Below are positions 5,794 to 35,215 of a stretch of 35,599 nt of DNA, piece after piece. Below the pieces are notes generated by a model that worked only from the letters and a program-made list of their open reading frames with translations, was not told where the DNA came from and made no database searches. The DNA is from Candidatus Kuenenia stuttgartensis (lineage in GTDB: Bacteria > Planctomycetota > Planctomycetia > Planctomycetales > Planctomycetaceae). Position numbers and translations under genes: made by a program. Numbering within the stretch: the stretch's first letter is position 1; the number at the start of each line of letters is the position of its first letter. The stretch lies in assembly GCA_945906725.1 (NCBI GenBank), contig CAMDRI010000044.1, positions 1 to 35,599 of the forward strand, in the 5' to 3' direction.

Positions 5794-5873
5794 CCCACGG
5801 ATGGCATGGCGATACCACGGATAAAACAGTGCTTGTCGTTCTTCATCCGTGGTATTGCCATGCCATCCGTGGG
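5794..5873. repeat. Near-perfect 80-bp palindrome
   Basis: Arms 5794-5822 and 5845-5873 (29 bases each) are reverse complements except at one position, which becomes a G-U pair in plus-strand RNA; the loop is 22 bases. Each arm contains ATGGCATGGC and ends in CCACGGAT. The element lies in the 318-base gap between the DHDPS-family gene and the amidohydrolase. Its stem is strong enough to end or stabilise the upstream transcript, but no T-run follows. In the remainder of 5652-5969 I see no gene and no clear promoter. Confidence 0.8.
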
Positions 5874-15607: not shown

Positions 15608-15760
15608 TTTTCAGACTGCCAGAGAAACAGCATCTGTAATCAACGCATCCTTGTCGTCGCCGGTTCGCTTTCCCTATTTGAACCGTGAAATCCGTGCCAG
15701 CCCTCAGTTATGATGACGCCGCTTCAGAATCCTGGCTGTCTGAGACCTTTACAAATCACC

Positions 15761-18724
15761 ATGCGGAATCGAATCCTCGCTCTTGCTCTCATCGCGTTTG
15801 GCCCGTTGTCGTCGGTGGGCTGGACCGCTGACGAACCGACCGGCATTGAATTCTTTGAGAAGAAGATTCGTCCGGTGCTCGTCCAGCATTGCTACGAATG
15901 CCACTCCGCCGACGCGAAGGCGCTGAAGGCGGGGTTGCTGCTCGACAGCCGCGACGGTTGGAAACAGGGTGGCGACTCCGGGCCAGCGATTGTGCCTGGC
16001 AAGCCGCAAGAGAGTCTGCTGATTCAGTCGCTGAAATACGCAGACGGCATGGAGATGCCCCCCAAAGGCAAACTGCCAGACGAAGTCGTCGCGGACTTCG
16101 TGAAGTGGGTCGAACAAGGTGCTCCCGATCCGCGCAACGCTCCTGCGAAGGCGATTGCTCGGCGCGAGATCGACATCGAGGCCGGCAAACGGTTGTGGTG
16201 TTTCAAGCCGATCGTTTCCCCAATTCCGCCAGTCGTGAAGATCGTCTCGTGGCCGACATCCGATCTCGACCGTTTCATTCTCGCCAAACAAGAAGCGGCC
16301 GGCCTTCGCCCTGTCGGTGACGCCGATCGAGCAACGTGGCTACGGCGGGTCTCGTTCGACTTGATCGGTCTGCCGCCGACTCCGGCGGAGATCGACGACT
16401 TCGTTTCGGATTCGTCGCCGGATGCTCGCGAGCAAGTCGTGGATCGACTGCTGGCCTCACCGCAATTCGGCGAGCGGTGGGGCCGACACTGGCTCGACAT
16501 CGCACGCTTCGCGGAATCAAGCGGCGGCGGTCGGTCGATGATTTTTCCCGAGGCCTGGCGGTATCGCGATTACGCGATCCGCTCGTTCAACGACGACAAA
16601 CCGTTCGACCGCTTCGTGCTGGAACAACTCGCTGGGGATTTGCTGCCGTTCGATTCGCCGCAGCAGCAAGAGGAACACCTCGTCGCAACGACGCTGCTGG
16701 CGCTCGGTCCAACGAACTACGAAGAGCAAGACAAGCAGGCGTTGGAATTCGACGTCGTCGACGAGCAGATCGACACGCTGGGCAAGGCACTGCTGGGAAT
16801 GACGATCGGGTGCGCTCGTTGCCACGATCACAAGTTCGATCCCATCCCGCAGCGCGACTACTACGCCCTGGCTGGCATCTTCCGCAGCACACACTTGCTC
16901 GATCATGACAATGTCTCGAAGTGGCTCGAACGCCCACTGCCGATCACGGCCGAACAAGCCGTCGCCGTCAAACAGCACGAACTTGCAGTCGTGGACCTCA
17001 AGAAACAGATCGACGCCACGAAGGTGGAAGAGAAGCGATTGGCCTCGGCCAAAAAGAACGCGGCCGGCGAAGACGACGCCTCGCCCGGCACTCCGCGCGG
17101 GCCGATTAAGCTCAAGGCGTTCACGGGCATCGTGCTGGATGACTCGGATGCAAAGAAGGTCGGCGACTGGACCAACTCGCAATTCAGCCGGCACTACATC
17201 GGCGACGGCTACACGCATGACGGCAACAAAGACAAAGGCCAAAAGACGCTGACGTTCACTCCAACCGTCCCGAAGGCCGGCGTGTATGAGGTTCGTTTAG
17301 CGTACAACGCAGGCGACAGCCGAGCGACCAACGTGCCGATCGAAATTCTGGACCTCGACGGCGAGCACGACATCAAGATCAACCAGCGCACACCGCCGCC
17401 GATCGACCATCGTTTCGTGTCGCTGGGCAAATTCCACTTCGACGAGTCGGGCCAGTGGTACGTCCTGATCAGCAATGAAGCGACCGACGGCCACGTCATC
17501 GTCGATGCCCTGCAATTGCTGCCGGCGGACGAGGGACGAGGGAAGGACAATTCGGCCATCGGCACGACCGACAAAACACAAAACACCAAGGACAAACTCC
17601 CCGATCTCAAAGTCCTGGAAAAACAACTTAAAGAACTCAACGAGCGTGCTCCTTACCGCCCGATGGCGATGTCGGTTGCAGAGGCCAAGCAATTTGAAGA
17701 CACGAACATCCGCATCCGCGGCAACGTCCACTCGAAAGGGGACAAAGTCCCGCGCGGATTCTTGCAAGTGGCCAGTTACGGCTCGCCGACACTGCCTCCG
17801 GCTAAGGAAAGCGGTCGCCGCGAACTGGCCGAGTGGATCACCAGCTCGACGAACCCGTTGACGGCTCGCGTGCTGGCCAATCGTGTCTGGCATCATCTGT
17901 TCGGCGTCGGCATCGTTCGCACCGTGGACAACTTCGGCACGACCGGCGAAACGCCATCGCACCCGGAATTGCTCGACCATCTCGCGATGCGGTTGACGAG
18001 TCACGGCTGGTCGGTGAAGTCGCTGATCCGCGAGATCGTGCTGTCGAGAACGTATGGACTGAGCAGTAGGGTGGGTCGAGTCCGCGAGATCCACCAATCC
18101 GGCACGACAAAAAATGGTGGGTCTCGCGGACTCGACCCACCCTACGCCGCCGATCCTGAAAACCGTCTGCACTGGCGACAGAACCGCCGCCGGCTCACGG
18201 CCGAGGCGATTCGCGACGCGATGCTGCTGACGAGCGATTCTCTGGATCGCACGATGCTTGGCCGCACGCTCCGCAACCCGAAACAGGATGGCCCGAACGC
18301 GAACATCGGCGAGATGACCTACGTCTTCGACGACTCGCGCCGCAGCGTCTACACCCCGATCTTGCGGAACCGTCTGCTGGAGTTGTTCGAGGCGTTCGAC
18401 TTCGCTGATCCGAACCTCTCAATCGGCCGCCGCAACATCACGACCGTGTCGACACAGGCGCTCTACCTGATGAACTCACCATTCGTCATGGACGAGTCCC
18501 GCGACGCCGCCCGCGAACTGCTCACGCAACCGAATCTCACCGACGAGCAGCGCGTCGCAGCGGCCTATCGGCAGACGCTCGGCCGCCAGCCAACCACGCG
18601 CGAACAGGACATCGCTCTGCGTATCATTTCGCCCACTGCCGAGAACACCGTCCCAAGTCCGATCGCCTGGGAGCGTCTGTTCCAAGCGTTGTTCGCAAGT
18701 GTCGATTTCCGATACTTGGAATAA
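15761..18724 (+). CDS. Planctomycete cytochrome C / DUF1549 / DUF1553 protein
   Basis: 987 residues from ATG 15761, chosen because the protein then begins with a signal peptide ('RILALALIAFGPLSSVGWTA'). Order: PSCyt1 cytochrome-like domain with haem site C44-x2-C47-H48 ('HCYECHSADA'); DUF1549 at about 165-390 with a second CxxCH at 351-355 ('GCARCHDHKFDP'); a beta-rich insert at about 450-588 resembling golvesin/xanthan-lyase C-terminal domains ('AGVYEVRLAYNAGDSRATNV'); DUF1553 at about 690-980 ('LANRVWHHLFGVGIV', 'RLHWRQNRRRLTAEAIRDAM'). Exported, and in the phylum generally paired with DUF1501 genes, but no intact partner is here. Residues about 769-795 are encoded by an 80-bp palindrome inserted between 'YGLSS' and 'DPENRL'. 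Function in the family is unproven; redox-linked polymer degradation is often proposed. Confidence 0.92.
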   Translation: MRNRILALALIAFGPLSSVGWTADEPTGIEFFEKKIRPVLVQHCYECHSADAKALKAGLLLDSRDGWKQGGDSGPAIVPGKPQESLLIQSLKYADGMEMPPKGKLPDEVVADFVKWVEQGAPDPRNAPAKAIARREIDIEAGKRLWCFKPIVSPIPPVVKIVSWPTSDLDRFILAKQEAAGLRPVGDADRATWLRRVSFDLIGLPPTPAEIDDFVSDSSPDAREQVVDRLLASPQFGERWGRHWLDIARFAESSGGGRSMIFPEAWRYRDYAIRSFNDDKPFDRFVLEQLAGDLLPFDSPQQQEEHLVATTLLALGPTNYEEQDKQALEFDVVDEQIDTLGKALLGMTIGCARCHDHKFDPIPQRDYYALAGIFRSTHLLDHDNVSKWLERPLPITAEQAVAVKQHELAVVDLKKQIDATKVEEKRLASAKKNAAGEDDASPGTPRGPIKLKAFTGIVLDDSDAKKVGDWTNSQFSRHYIGDGYTHDGNKDKGQKTLTFTPTVPKAGVYEVRLAYNAGDSRATNVPIEILDLDGEHDIKINQRTPPPIDHRFVSLGKFHFDESGQWYVLISNEATDGHVIVDALQLLPADEGRGKDNSAIGTTDKTQNTKDKLPDLKVLEKQLKELNERAPYRPMAMSVAEAKQFEDTNIRIRGNVHSKGDKVPRGFLQVASYGSPTLPPAKESGRRELAEWITSSTNPLTARVLANRVWHHLFGVGIVRTVDNFGTTGETPSHPELLDHLAMRLTSHGWSVKSLIREIVLSRTYGLSSRVGRVREIHQSGTTKNGGSRGLDPPYAADPENRLHWRQNRRRLTAEAIRDAMLLTSDSLDRTMLGRTLRNPKQDGPNANIGEMTYVFDDSRRSVYTPILRNRLLELFEAFDFADPNLSIGRRNITTVSTQALYLMNSPFVMDESRDAARELLTQPNLTDEQRVAAAYRQTLGRQPTTREQDIALRIISPTAENTVPSPIAWERLFQALFASVDFRYLE
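17528..17546. repeat. Tandem word GACGAGG inside a coding region
   Basis: GACGAGGGACGAGGGAAGG lies in frame in the polar linker after the golvesin-like domain of the cytochrome gene (encoding 'ADEGRGKDN'). It closely matches the intergenic run at 12741-12761. It may be a chance product of a low-complexity linker. Confidence 0.45.
18066..18145. repeat. 80-bp palindrome inside the DUF1553 coding region
   Basis: Arms 18066-18096 and 18115-18145 (31 bases each) are reverse complements with one mismatch that is G-U in RNA; the loop is 18 bases. The arms begin GTAGGGTGGGTCGAGTCCGC. In the gene's frame it reads through without a stop and encodes 'RVGRVREIHQSGTTKNGGSR' followed by 'GLDPPYAA', which is unlike the DUF1553 sequence on either side. 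The element has the same design as the intergenic palindromes of this window. Confidence 0.9.
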
Positions 18725-20034: not shown

Positions 20035-20104
20035 TGGGACCAGCGCAGCGACGGCCCAACACGTCTACGAAAACAAAAGGTGGGCCGGTGCTGCGCTGGT
20101 CCCA
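20035..20104. repeat. Imperfect 70-bp palindrome 3' of the SDR gene
   Basis: Left arm 20035-20060 begins TGGGACCAGCGCAGC and right arm 20079-20104 ends GCTGCGCTGGTCCCA; these outer 15 bases pair perfectly, then GGCCCA/TGGGCC pairs after a short mismatch. The loop is 18 bases. It fills the gap between the IS110 remnant and the end of the SDR gene, 10 bases past its stop, and could end that transcript. Read on the minus strand it starts GTAGTGTGGGACC; the GTAG edge recurs in two other palindromes here. Confidence 0.75.
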
Positions 20105-20937: not shown

Positions 20938-21018
20938 GTAGGTCAGCCTTTCCAGGCTGACCCGATCAACAATCGAGGTAGTTTTCCAATTCGGGTCAAG
21001 CTGGAAAGCCTGACCTAC
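20938..21018. repeat. 81-bp palindrome between endonuclease IV and SDR genes
   Basis: Arms 20938-20965 and 20991-21018 (28 bases) match at 25 positions; loop 25 bases. The left arm begins GTAGGTCAGCCTTTCCAGG and contains its own small inverted repeat (GTCAGCCT/AGGCTGAC), so each arm can fold alone. On the minus strand the element opens with GTAG, and this TAG is the stop codon of endonuclease IV (21015-21017). It fills almost all of the 90-base gap. Same family as 4655-4710 by its TAGG edge and TTCCAG core. Confidence 0.82.
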
Positions 21019-23843: not shown

Positions 23844-23888
23844 ACGCCCCAGCGGGCCACGGTCAACGATCGTGGCCCGCTGGGGCGT
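23844..23888. terminator. Strong hairpin terminator between convergent rpsT and cyclophilin genes
   Basis: ACGCCCCAGCGGGCCACG (23844-23861) and its exact reverse complement (23871-23888) form an 18-bp perfect stem with a 9-base loop. On the minus strand it is followed by TGATTTTTTCTG, a proper T-run, so it should end the cyclophilin transcript. On the plus strand it is followed by a weaker TGTTGTTGG and can also serve rpsT. Confidence 0.85.
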
Positions 23889-23912: not shown

Positions 23913-24668
23913 CTACGACTTCTCGCCTTCGACCGGCTTGTTCTCATCAGGTTTGGCTTCGTCCGATGAAGACTCTGGTTCGATGAAGTTTGCCTTCTTG
24001 ATCGAGTCGAGTCCCGGAAAGGCTTTGTCCAAGAATGCGTTGCCTTGCTCTTGGATTCGTCCCTGCTGCTGGCTGGCTTCCTCGCCGTATTTCGAGTTCA
24101 GACTTTCGAGAACGTCCATTCCGGAGAGCACTCGGCCGAAGGGGGTGAATCCATCGGGATCGAGTCGGCTGTTGTTGGCGTAGCTGGCAAAGATTTGCGT
24201 GCTGCGCGAATTCGGCTGTCCCGATTTCGCGAAGGTCACCATGCCGCGGACGTTGGATTGGCGATTGGCTCCGCTGGGGCGGTCATCCGGGATGTTGGCA
24301 TCACGCCATTTGTCCATGACCTTGGGATCGCCGTGGATACCCCATTGCGCCATGAACCCCGGCAAAACTCGGAAGAAGCGGCAGTCGTTGTAGAAGCCGA
24401 TTTTGACAAGCTCATGAAACCGCGCGGCTCCGTGCGGTGACCAGTCGCGATGGACCTCGATGACGAAATCCCCCTTCGTCGTTTCAAACTTCACTTGAAA
24501 CGTGGCCGGGATGTCGCCGGCATCCGCGGCTTGAGCATCCTGGGTGTCAACCTTTGGCAACGGGGCACCCATCGGCAACGGCGGGTCGGTCTGTTGCGAC
24601 TGAGTACATCCCGCCAAGGCCGAGATGGCGAGCAGTCCCCAAAAATGTCGTCGAGTCATACCGAACAT
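23913..24668 (-). CDS. Cyclophilin-type peptidylprolyl isomerase, Tat-type lipoprotein
   Basis: 251 residues from ATG 24668, with GAGG 5 bases upstream; GTG 24674 is an alternative. Exported by a twin-arginine signal (R6-R7 in 'TRRHFWGLLAISALAGC') with a lipobox ending at C21, so it is a membrane-anchored lipoprotein outside the cytoplasm. The cyclophilin domain covers about 55-225: 'FVIEVHRDWSPHGAARFHEL', the catalytic Arg/Phe/Gln set in 'CRFFRVLPGFMAQWGIHGD', and 'NSRSTQIFASYANN'. The tail is acidic and lysine-rich. It assists folding at proline bonds. It lies 56 bases after a closely related copy on the same strand. Confidence 0.9.
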   Translation of the reverse strand: MFGMTRRHFWGLLAISALAGCTQSQQTDPPLPMGAPLPKVDTQDAQAADAGDIPATFQVKFETTKGDFVIEVHRDWSPHGAARFHELVKIGFYNDCRFFRVLPGFMAQWGIHGDPKVMDKWRDANIPDDRPSGANRQSNVRGMVTFAKSGQPNSRSTQIFASYANNSRLDPDGFTPFGRVLSGMDVLESLNSKYGEEASQQQGRIQEQGNAFLDKAFPGLDSIKKANFIEPESSSDEAKPDENKPVEGEKS

Positions 24669-24724: not shown

Positions 24725-25384
24725 TCACTTCTTGGCTTCCACGATCGTTGCCTTCTTGATGAAGTCCAGTCCGGGATAGGCCTTGTCGAGAAAGGCATTG
24801 CCTTCGCGCTGGATGCGAGGCTGTTGATCGCTGGGGGCTCCTTCGTACTTGGCGTTGAGCTTGTCCACCACGTCCATGCCTTCAATGACCTGTCCAAACG
24901 GTGAGAAGCCGTCTGCATCCAGCCGGGCATTGTTGCCGAAGTTGATGAAGAGTTGCGTGGTCCGCGAGTGCGGCTTGCCTGACTTGGCGAACGTGATGAA
25001 GCCGCGTGTGTTCGAGGCCCGCTCCTTGGCCGGAACGACGTCATCTTTGATTTCCGCTTCGCGCCACTTCGATTGCACCTTGGGATCGCCGTTGATGCCC
25101 CATTGCACCATGAAACCGGGGATGACTCGGAAGAAGCGGCAGTCGTCGTAGAAGCCCGCTTTGACCGCGTCGTAAAACCGAGCGGCTCCGTTCGGCGACC
25201 ACGCGCGAGTGACTTCGATCACGATGTCTCCCTTCGAGGTCTCGATCTTCACCTGAAATGTTTCCGGGATGCTGTCCGGCTTCGGCGGCTTGGGATCTTT
25301 GTCGTCGGCATGCGCCGGTTGAATGGCCGAGCCAAGAACCGCGGTCGTTGCGACCGCGCCGCAAAACTGTCGTCGAGAAAACAT
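24725..25384 (-). CDS. Cyclophilin-type peptidylprolyl isomerase, Tat-exported
   Basis: 219 residues. Twin-arginine signal 'MFSRRQFCGAVATTAVLGSA' with cleavage likely after 'QPAHA', so soluble and exported, unlike its lipid-anchored neighbour. The domain matches the neighbour closely: 'IVIEVTRAWSPNGAARFYDA', 'CRFFRVIPGFMVQWGINGD', 'HSRTTQLFINFGNNARLD', 'GFSPFGQVIEGMDVVDKLN', 'GNAFLDKAYPGLDFIKKA'. Both copies share a long C-terminal block not found in minimal cyclophilins. The pair arose by tandem duplication; this copy is first in the transcript. Confidence 0.92.
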   Translation of the reverse strand: MFSRRQFCGAVATTAVLGSAIQPAHADDKDPKPPKPDSIPETFQVKIETSKGDIVIEVTRAWSPNGAARFYDAVKAGFYDDCRFFRVIPGFMVQWGINGDPKVQSKWREAEIKDDVVPAKERASNTRGFITFAKSGKPHSRTTQLFINFGNNARLDADGFSPFGQVIEGMDVVDKLNAKYEGAPSDQQPRIQREGNAFLDKAYPGLDFIKKATIVEAKK

Positions 25385-26430: not shown

Positions 26431-26492
26431 GTGGTGCGGGCGGCTCGCCTGCATCGCAACGACGTTTGGTTCAGGCGAGCCGCCCGAACCAC
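26431..26492. repeat. 62-bp palindrome in a divergent promoter region
   Basis: Arms 26431-26451 and 26472-26492 (21 bases) match at 20 positions; loop 20 bases. The arm reads GTGGTGCGGGCGGCTCGCCT. It lies in the 142-base region between the starts of the PmoA-like gene (minus) and the unknown membrane-protein gene (plus), so it must be close to or inside one of their promoters. Confidence 0.82.
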
Positions 26493-30146: not shown

Positions 30147-31145
30147 ATGTCTCGCGTCGTTCGTCCGCTCAGTGGCTGTTGCCAGTTCAGCGCGTTTCGT
30201 CATGCCACAGTTGTCACAGGAATTCTGTCGCTTTCGCTGGCAGGAATGGGGCTCATGGGCTGTTCGTCGGAGGAGCCAGCACCGGCCGCGAACCAAGCTC
30301 AAGGCAACCCAGCACCAGCCGGTGCTGCTGGTGGAATGCCAGGTGGTGGCGGAATGGCCGGTGCTGCTGGTGGAATGCCAGGTGGTGGCGGAATGGCCGG
30401 TGCTGCTGGTGGAATGCCAGGTGGTGGCGGAATGGCCGGTGCTGCTGGCGGAATGCCAGGTGGTGGCGGAATGGCCGGTGCTGCTGGCGGAATGCCAGGT
30501 GGTGGTGGCAAGGGTGGCATGCCTGCGGGAATCGGTGGATCGGCATCAGGTGCGACGCTGGCTAGCGCCGCTCCGGCAGGTGCTGGCGTGCCAGGAGGTG
30601 CTGGAGCGCCAGGAGGTGCTGGTGTGCCAGGAGGTGCTGGTGTGCCAGGAGGTGCTGGAGCGCCAGGAGGTGTCGGTGCGAAGGGAGCTGGTGCGGCAGG
30701 TGCTGGTGCGCCAGGCGGTGGTGGTGCGCCAGGCGGTGGTGGTGCGCCAGGCGGTGGTGGTGCGCCAGGTGGTGGTGGTGCGCCAGGTGGTGCTTCTCAG
30801 AATCCGCAGTCTCAGGCAGGCACGGCTGAGTTCGCCGCCGAGTCCATTGTGGTTCAGATTCTTAAGGGCGAGGCCTCCGGCTTGGAAGAATTCATCAGCC
30901 CGAAATGCAAAGGCGTTCTGGGAGACATTCGCGACGGCAAGGCCACCGAGAAACAAATCGACGATCTCAAGAAACAGTTCACGGGCGTCAAAAAAGTCGG
31001 GTCGAGAACGGAAAACGGAGTGAAAGTTCTGACGCTGCGCAATGCCGAAAGCTTGACCATCACCTTCCGTGTTAAGAAGGAAGGCGAAGACTTCAAGGTT
31101 ATCGAAATGACGGTCAAGGCTGGCACAGGCAAGAAGGGCCGCTGA
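30147..31145 (+). CDS. Gly/Ala/Pro-rich repeat lipoprotein
   Basis: 332 residues from ATG 30147, with GGAG (30136-30139) 7 bases upstream. Lipoprotein signal ends at C39 ('ILSLSLAGMGLMGCSSEEP'). Residues about 50-216 are low complexity in three blocks: five copies of 'AGAAGGMPGGGGM', five of 'GAGVPG/GAGAPG' and five of 'GAPGGG'. The last ~115 residues form a normal, charged domain: 'FAAESIVVQILKGEASGLEE', 'KVLTLRNAESLTITFRVKKE', ending in 'KKGR'. The repeat region should be a long flexible or collagen-like spacer holding the C-terminal domain off the membrane. Repeat units are multiples of 3 bases, so copy number can change without breaking the frame. Function unknown. Confidence 0.82.
   Translation: MSRVVRPLSGCCQFSAFRHATVVTGILSLSLAGMGLMGCSSEEPAPAANQAQGNPAPAGAAGGMPGGGGMAGAAGGMPGGGGMAGAAGGMPGGGGMAGAAGGMPGGGGMAGAAGGMPGGGGKGGMPAGIGGSASGATLASAAPAGAGVPGGAGAPGGAGVPGGAGVPGGAGAPGGVGAKGAGAAGAGAPGGGGAPGGGGAPGGGGAPGGGGAPGGASQNPQSQAGTAEFAAESIVVQILKGEASGLEEFISPKCKGVLGDIRDGKATEKQIDDLKKQFTGVKKVGSRTENGVKVLTLRNAESLTITFRVKKEGEDFKVIEMTVKAGTGKKGR
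30318..30512 (+). repeat. Tandem repeat, 39-bp unit, 5 copies
   Basis: Five head-to-tail copies of a 39-base unit starting GCCGGTGCTGCTGGTGGAAT; the copies differ at one or a few bases (GGT to GGC) and the fifth ends in AAG instead of ATG. Near-identity at the DNA level means recent expansion or gene-conversion-like homogenisation. Confidence 0.92.
30579..30668 (+). repeat. Tandem repeat, 18-bp unit, 5 copies
   Basis: Five copies of GGTGCTGGNGNGCCAGGA, alternating codons for GAGVPG and GAGAPG, in the same lipoprotein gene. A sixth, diverged unit follows. Confidence 0.85.
30705..30794 (+). repeat. Tandem repeat, second 18-bp unit, 5 copies
   Basis: Five copies of GGTGCGCCAGGCGGTGGT encoding GAPGGG; the third positions GGC/GGT vary in the last copies and the final copy ends in GCT. 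Confidence 0.85.
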
Positions 31146-35173: not shown

Positions 35174-35215
35174 CAACAACTGTACATCAATAGAACTATT
35201 GATGTACAGTTGTTG
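35174..35215. promoter_or_regulatory. Perfect 42-bp palindrome upstream of lexA, candidate operator
   Basis: Arms 35174-35193 (CAACAACTGTACATCAATAG) and 35196-35215 are exact reverse complements around AA. With so short a spacer it suits a dimeric DNA-binding protein better than an RNA hairpin. Autoregulation is usual for LexA, so this is a candidate LexA operator, but it is far from the start and much longer than known SOS boxes. A recombination or insertion-element end is also possible. Confidence 0.55.

Follow-up and report, generated by a model that had tools for sequence, protein, structure and literature searches.

How does an 80-nt palindrome come to lie in the reading frame of a long gene without closing that frame, and how has it been kept there? 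The question is raised by positions 18066-18145 of a 35,599-nt stretch of Candidatus Kuenenia stuttgartensis DNA (assembly GCA_945906725.1, contig CAMDRI010000044.1; hereafter the window), where such a palindrome falls within the DUF1553 domain of an open reading frame (ORF). The palindrome is a REP doublet forming a hairpin (REPIN), that is, two inverted GTAG-tagged repetitive extragenic palindromic (REP) sequences, each able to fold into a hairpin, with a short loop between them. In the reading favoured here, to which we give a probability of roughly 0.9, it is a non-autonomous element of a system of REP-associated tyrosine transposases (RAYTs) in the genus, which would have been moved into the gene by a RAYT in an ancestor of several species and would have been kept, stop-free, in a tolerant loop.

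The palindrome and its family

The following features (coordinates, strand, description) were used throughout.

15710..18724, plus: host gene, 1004 aa, with the Pfam domains PSCyt1 (61-120), DUF1549/PSCyt2 (186-395), Golvesin_C (475-603) and DUF1553/PSD1 (702-971)
17813..18622, plus: DUF1553 (PF07587) domain, interrupted by the REPIN (Pfam)
18066..18145, plus: REPIN, 80 nt, in frame, codons 786-812 (from its ends, arms, ORF translation and related copies)
18066..18096, plus: 5' REP, GTAG foot and hairpin arm; CG variant GTCCGCGAG of the usual GTCATCGAG, plus one more change
18097..18114, plus: loop, resembling the loops of the same-site copies in relatives G008 and G002 (from loop scores)
18115..18145, minus: inverted 3' REP of the CG variant, with GGA in place of the usual TGA in the frame read

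The 31-nt arms contain one mismatch (97% complementary), enclose 18 nt and end in GTAG (5') and CTAC (3'). With a palindrome score of 28.5 the structure lies beyond chance, since scores of at least 15 were reached by 120 palindromes in 814,291 bases of the window's own genome and by 1 in one order-2 Markov control. This genome is a fragmented assembly (268 contigs, 92% complete), and 28 of its 120 palindromes lie inside long ORFs (picked by length). A clear 7/8-base arm period was present in just 2 of the 120; clustering them by shared 10-mers was set aside, as 106 fell into one group.

The host ORF passes through the palindrome with zero stops, and both the near-perfect arms and the open frame had been given correctly in a preliminary description of the locus. 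Since 80 nt is not a multiple of three, the open frame depends on the flanks too. The insert of about 27 residues named in that description corresponds to the codons touched (786-812, there numbered 769-795 from an internal start at 15761), whereas the net gain is 19 residues, the stretch between the bordering motifs measuring 41 residues in the window's protein against the usual ~22 in paralogues. An artefact of frame or of this fragmented, 268-contig assembly, with a pseudogene as host or a chimeric palindrome, has a next to negligible probability: the ORF is intact with four Pfam domains, and the same site with an open frame is present in G008 (named record L194) and G002.

The preliminary description had proposed a mobile or spreading palindrome, to be checked by a search for further copies. 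A 92-base query located the repeat at 20 places in the own genome (38 rows, many of them the two strands of a single palindrome), where the half-site GTAGGGTGGGTCGAG has 21 exact occurrences. Matches to the family at E 1e-7 or better were obtained in 11 of the 12 genomes of the genus (the own genome and relatives G001 to G011). The exact usual 30-nt arm occurred 252 times over these 12 genomes, very unevenly (G008 83, G002 75, G006 40, G007 19, G010 15, own 9, the other six 0-5), and the exact 30-nt CG arm 13 times, confined to four genomes and found once in the own genome. A pattern scan of public genomes, which may omit near relatives of the window, yielded at least 114 stretches titled, as deposited, Planctomyces sp., Planctomycetota or Candidatus Kuenenia. 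Extragenic location is usual for REPINs, though not strictly defining; the window copy and others are intragenic. In the own genome (8 copies) arms were more alike within than between copies, a likeness reached by 8 of 2000 permutations, but 47 copies at named loci had no such excess (1837 of 2000 permutations); as the two sets disagree, no general within-copy effect is claimed.

Rickettsia palindromic elements (RPEs) are palindromes found in frame in unrelated genes, and the preliminary description had taken them as the precedent. The effect is indeed comparable, a palindrome of similar size lying in frame in unrelated genes here as well. However, both outer ends of the window element carry the GTAG tag and not the CGTC reported for the RPEs of Rickettsia conorii, which Table 1 of PMC3733652 gives as a separate class with no transposase-gene association listed, and a RAYT gene in G008 is flanked by REPs of the same family. 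A Rickettsia-type element or analogue, moving by its own means without a tie to RAYTs, was rejected on these two grounds and is very improbable.

The closest precedent is provided by the GTAG REPs treated in PMC3733652, where they were reported in 2013 in Planctomycetes, with Rhodopirellula baltica named, so that the supposed lack of any described equivalent in this phylum does not stand. Passages of the same source describe intragenic REP dimers coding 20-30 residues in other bacteria (e.g. Opitutus terrae and Thauera), associate REPs with RAYTs, suggest that insertions may be neutral in linkers or loops, and report two Xanthomonas recB genes with different REPs at about the same site. The present element shares with those dimers the position inside a gene and the addition of 20-30 residues; unlike the cases in those passages, different species and paralogues here have several unrelated elements in one and the same loop, and gene copies have a change in the stop of the arm. 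REPINs themselves were defined in PMC3116915, in a passage that also notes compensatory changes on the two hairpin sides. As in the REPIN/RAYT systems described there for Pseudomonas fluorescens SBW25 and others, an inverted REP doublet is dispersed and a RAYT lies near its own REP; relative to the REPINs of that account, REP sequence and lineage are new here. Within the open-licence literature, PMC3733652 alone was found on intragenic REPINs with RAYTs; no report was met of this REPIN family, of its stop-free gene copies or of one loop with unrelated palindromes, and nothing on DUF1553 with palindromes or on palindromic in-frame insertion in planctomycetes. The kind of element is known; what looks new is that it occurs inside genes in stop-free versions and that unrelated hairpins have reused one protein loop.

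A candidate mobiliser and the probable insertion step

SXKJ01000504.1 (locus L156, relative G008) contains a 186-aa ORF flanked by a single REP and, at its other side, by a complete REPIN, both belonging to the window's family. Its product (P0002) scored 184 bits against NF047646 (cut-off 80) and matched TnpA-REP (PDB 4er8) at E 1.1e-41, in an alignment that spans the PDHLH and VDYLHWNP regions, which we take to hold the catalytic residues (HuH, Tyr). By these matches P0002 is a RAYT related to TnpA-REP of E. coli. The RAYT gene of G008 is 99% identical to P0002 and has the same flanking REPs (L231). Searches with P0002 matched 63 of 79 genomes, many weakly. Around the gene (~500 nt each way) a GTAG hairpin was found at 21 of the 30 RAYT-hit loci returned, compared with 83 of 465 1.6-kb windows of the own genome, a control drawn from a single, REP-rich genome. 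The flanking hairpins vary in sequence by locus and are often alike on both sides of one gene, a pattern that would be expected for co-evolving pairs.

A total of 98 empty-site queries (duplicates included) gave eight with a row, of which one was a true empty site; three others represented the DUF1553 site with other content, three had a REPIN on both sides and one lay inside a repeat array. The true empty site concerns a DUF1549 gene (L141, from G006) and own contig C8, whose aligned flanks are 90% and 89% identical. The spacing is what an insertion of exactly 87 nt without target duplication would give, and CT stands directly before GTAG. Miniature inverted-repeat transposable elements of DDE insertion sequences are also short, non-autonomous and bounded by inverted repeats but usually leave target duplications; none was seen at this one empty site, which is another locus with 21 nt unaligned on one side. 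The window copy is preceded by CA. In PMC8266576, cleavage by E. coli TnpA-REP is placed at CT, and that by a Marinomonas enzyme at both CT and CA. Taken with the dispersed repeat and the REP-flanked gene of G008, these observations suggest that a RAYT, an HuH/tyrosine single-strand DNA transposase, most likely placed a REPIN copy in this gene in a common ancestor of several species. The mobility proposed in the preliminary description is still an inference, as is its agent in this lineage, though a REP-flanked RAYT in a relative can now be set beside it.

Several observations weigh against this account. No GTAG hairpin was found at 9 of the 30 RAYT-hit loci, among them L258-L260, whose gene, at the end of a contig, is not within the stretch tested. 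Among the 12 genus genomes a near-identical RAYT (99%) is confined to G008; the next-nearest, in G004 and G001 (64-65%), have no GTAG hairpin nearby, and in the high-copy genomes G002 and G006 the RAYT matches are limited to weak ones and a 59% fragment at the end of a contig. The own genome yielded no close relative of P0002 (best E 3.9e-5), although loss and non-assembly are indistinguishable here because the assembly is 92% complete and several repeat copies lie at contig ends. Its four distant Y1_Tnp proteins scored 57-68 bits, under the NF047646 cut-off, and were rejected as mobiliser, 0 of 4 having the window's REP in their locus. At the empty site the 21 unaligned nt lie to the left of the element, so that the exactness of insertion rests on equal length. 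A clean empty site is lacking at the DUF1553 locus itself, where each of the 11 other genus members has the same REPIN, other content or a short loop. Finally, the predicted structure of residues 661-1004 (mean predicted local distance difference test score 47) is too low in confidence to place the DUF1553 loop.

A protein loop with many kinds of insert

The host protein was aligned with the homologues at 29 loci returned by the search, which are not all matches (11 from the genus, 18 from outside). Among these 30 sequences, the segment with palindromic DNA is present only in the own genome, G008 and G002. In all 18 from outside the genus the loop at its position is short, and none has the segment, with or without the palindrome. 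With further copies present in the genome as well, neither refuting condition named in the preliminary description applies; an insertion peculiar to this strain, as the preliminary description had envisaged, is thus correct as to absence outside the genus but not as to the strain. The same description had the element interrupting conserved DUF1553 sequence; the loop is in fact variable family-wide, and only the motifs on its two sides are conserved.

Five kinds of loop content were distinguished at the DUF1553 orthologue in the 12 genus genomes. The window's REPIN is present in three (own, G008, G002), a different GTAG palindrome in G006, a third palindrome, without GTAG, in G003, and a short loop in G009; the other six (G011, G007, G005, G010, G004 and G001, the last mixed) have AAATCTC-like tracts that form no strong hairpin (loci L063, L064, L065, L068, L069 and L070). 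The G006 palindrome is dispersed as well, with matches, some to a single arm, in 9 of the 12 genomes. On the gene tree these states alternate between two clades, and the sisters G002 and G010 (support 0.999) differ. The loops between the REPs resemble one another in the copies of the own genome, G008 and G002 (score 14; the best others score 9 and 7, then at most 3, among 54 compared, including L194, the G008 copy), which most simply points to a single old insertion with later replacement elsewhere; separate events could also have produced them.

The paralogues of the own genome gave a similar picture. The DUF1553 set comprised 98 matches, reduced to 91 by merging seven pairs; 90 were aligned (fragment C181:3-158 was left out), at least one of which (L379) stops short of the loop. 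In 9 of the 90 domains, the window's gene included, the loop is expanded by at least 16 residues. Eight of these nine expansions have a palindrome score of at least 11, seven of them at least 17, and the ninth (L306) scores 9; among 360 control segments 95% scored at most 10.5 and 99% at most 17. The expanded-loop sequences look unrelated save for one pair, L345 and L350 (GATGGGCACTCTTGC type). A second loop, upstream, holds 12 inserts (5 scoring at least 11.5) and a third position 35 (1 above 10.5); at a further position an insert in L377 reaches 20.5. The split PF07587 matches L349-L352 were considered as cases of the same loop and rejected, their insert being at the loop ~25 columns upstream (L350 has inserts at both).

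The DUF1553 loop is a hot spot for inserts. That unrelated elements meet in it is explained best by tolerance of the loop, which would be exposed, rather than by a sequence target, and the REPIN would have survived by landing there, its added residues perhaps being neutral. Alternatively, the element might have arisen in place, by templated quasi-palindrome synthesis or recombination of copies, and then reached the same site in other species by gene conversion. Other palindromes, several of them GTAG-free, do occur in this loop in paralogues and in G003, and the same states alternate between the two clades; but the sequence belongs to a dispersed family with a cognate RAYT, and the 60-nt flanks of the own and G008 copies are not raised in identity (0.82, 0.85) and so give no sign of local transfer. 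On that ground a local gene transfer was rejected as the source of these same-site copies, and origin in place is quite improbable.

GTAG-free palindromes in the same DUF1553 loop were noted at L332, L339, L344, L347 and L062, with arms that by eye consist of short imperfect repeats; no mobiliser or mechanism was found for these five.

Reading frame, inheritance and arm identity

Insertion into a tolerant loop by a RAYT would leave a readable gene only if the element had no stop in the frame used, and this may be the second way in which the copy survived. In one frame of its 3' copy the usual arm reads TCT CGA TGA; the TGA is GGA in the window copy and AGA in G008 and G002. The copies examined are those listed in pattern scans and searches, a sample and not a full census. 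ORFs of at least 200 aa contained 19 of the 54 unique full copies, and TGACTC was missing from the 3' arm in 14 of these 19 versus 5 of the 35 others (Fisher P 2e-5). With L144, L222 and L228 recounted as non-genic the figures became 14/16 versus 5/38, and with copies collapsed into events by our own grouping 9/11 versus 5/38 (P 4e-5). Because calling copies by an open frame favours stop-free ones, the test was repeated starting from the flanks alone. Coding-like flanks on one strand were then found in 11 of 12 copies with a CG arm versus 25 of 46 without, and in 23 of 27 copies with a TGA-free arm versus 13 of 31 with both arms usual (P 0.001). The through-frame was open in 20 of 58 copies, with a TGA-free arm in 19 of the 20 versus 8 of the 38 remaining, a count that uses the open frame, treats copies at orthologous sites as if independent and still has L222 among the 19. 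In this respect the family differs from the REPINs of PMC3116915, there described as extragenic.

The hosts were checked by a Pfam scan of 17 ORFs with copies. A Pfam match was interrupted in DUF1549 (L003, L141, L199, L204, L211), in a kinase (L163, L171, L212), in DUF7133 (L160) and in an FAD oxidoreductase (L180). Copies lay between domains in a proline dehydrogenase/aldehyde dehydrogenase (L132) and a GlnD-like protein (L140), at a domain edge in UvrA (L207), between weak matches in L177, and ahead of the sole match in L144 and L222; L228 had no match.

Stop-free in-gene copies appear to be inherited, as judged from the DUF1549 site, where copies of equal length (84 nt) are common to four species (own, G008, G006, G002). 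At the same DLLP position, a more distant gene of G006 (L141) also carries a copy, whose loop differs. Between the four species the DUF1549 arms are 98-100% identical, compared with 86-89% for the flanks and 55-77% for the loops; the binomial probability of 0-1 differences in 62 nt at 12-14% divergence is 0.003-0.001. This could be due to conversion between copies, to selection on the hairpin or to repeated insertion. The contrast is weaker in DUF1553 (arms 92%, flanks 83-84%, own versus G008 or G002), where the own copy differs from the other two at the same two positions in both arms; the kinase copies have arms of 84-98% and flanks of 69-79%.

The arm identities raise the possibility that the palindrome has been kept not as a passenger but for a hairpin function in RNA or DNA at this place, such as mRNA stability, translation pausing or a gyrase site. 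The strongly conserved DUF1549 arms and the paired changes in the two DUF1553 arms are what such a function might leave behind, yet conversion by the many identical copies elsewhere explains arm identity equally well, and at the DUF1553 site itself arm identity is just 92%. Moreover, six of the 12 species have tracts without a strong hairpin at this site, and 81 of the 90 own-genome domains lack an expansion of such size at the loop. A hairpin function is judged unlikely.

A bolder extension of the RAYT-based reading, which we regard as rather doubtful, is a gene-adapted REPIN lineage with a stop-free CG-type arm, placed in frame in tolerant loops, inherited to the depth of the genus and with arms kept alike by conversion; the ~90 DUF1549/DUF1553 proteins would serve as its refuge, so that protein segments might be supplied routinely.

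Other repeats were recorded in the same genome. In the window, a GTAG...CTAC inverted pair (GTAGGTCAGCC...CCTGACCTAC) that seems to belong to a second REPIN family extends across the place where two convergent ORFs end, at 20938-21018. Five more palindromes score at least 18.5 (5794-5873, 20035-20104, 23844-23888, 26431-26492, which is inside an ORF, and 35174-35215). Two 195-nt direct copies, 80% identical and 758 nt apart, lie at 24319-24513 and 25077-25271, and 39-nt and 18-nt tandem repeats at 30279-30828 fall in overlapping ORFs that are Gly/Met-rich by eye. On own contig C13, a DEAH-type helicase gene with DUF3418 (L422:12647-16921), presumably HrpA-like, contains three in-frame palindromes scoring at least 18.5, and a DUF6797/cytochrome c gene (L423:15350-19960) three scoring at least 16.5. 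An Rfam scan returned 5 matches (E up to 1), all under the gathering score.

The REPIN at 18066-18145, read as a RAYT-moved passenger, connects single-strand transposition of a classical type with the origin of new protein segments, and does so in a phylum little examined for this. The DUF1553 loop offers a natural experiment, in which one loop can be followed through many species and paralogues with inserts of several kinds. Two questions can thereby be put to the test, whether mobile palindromes evolve protein readability and whether gene conversion keeps their arms alike.

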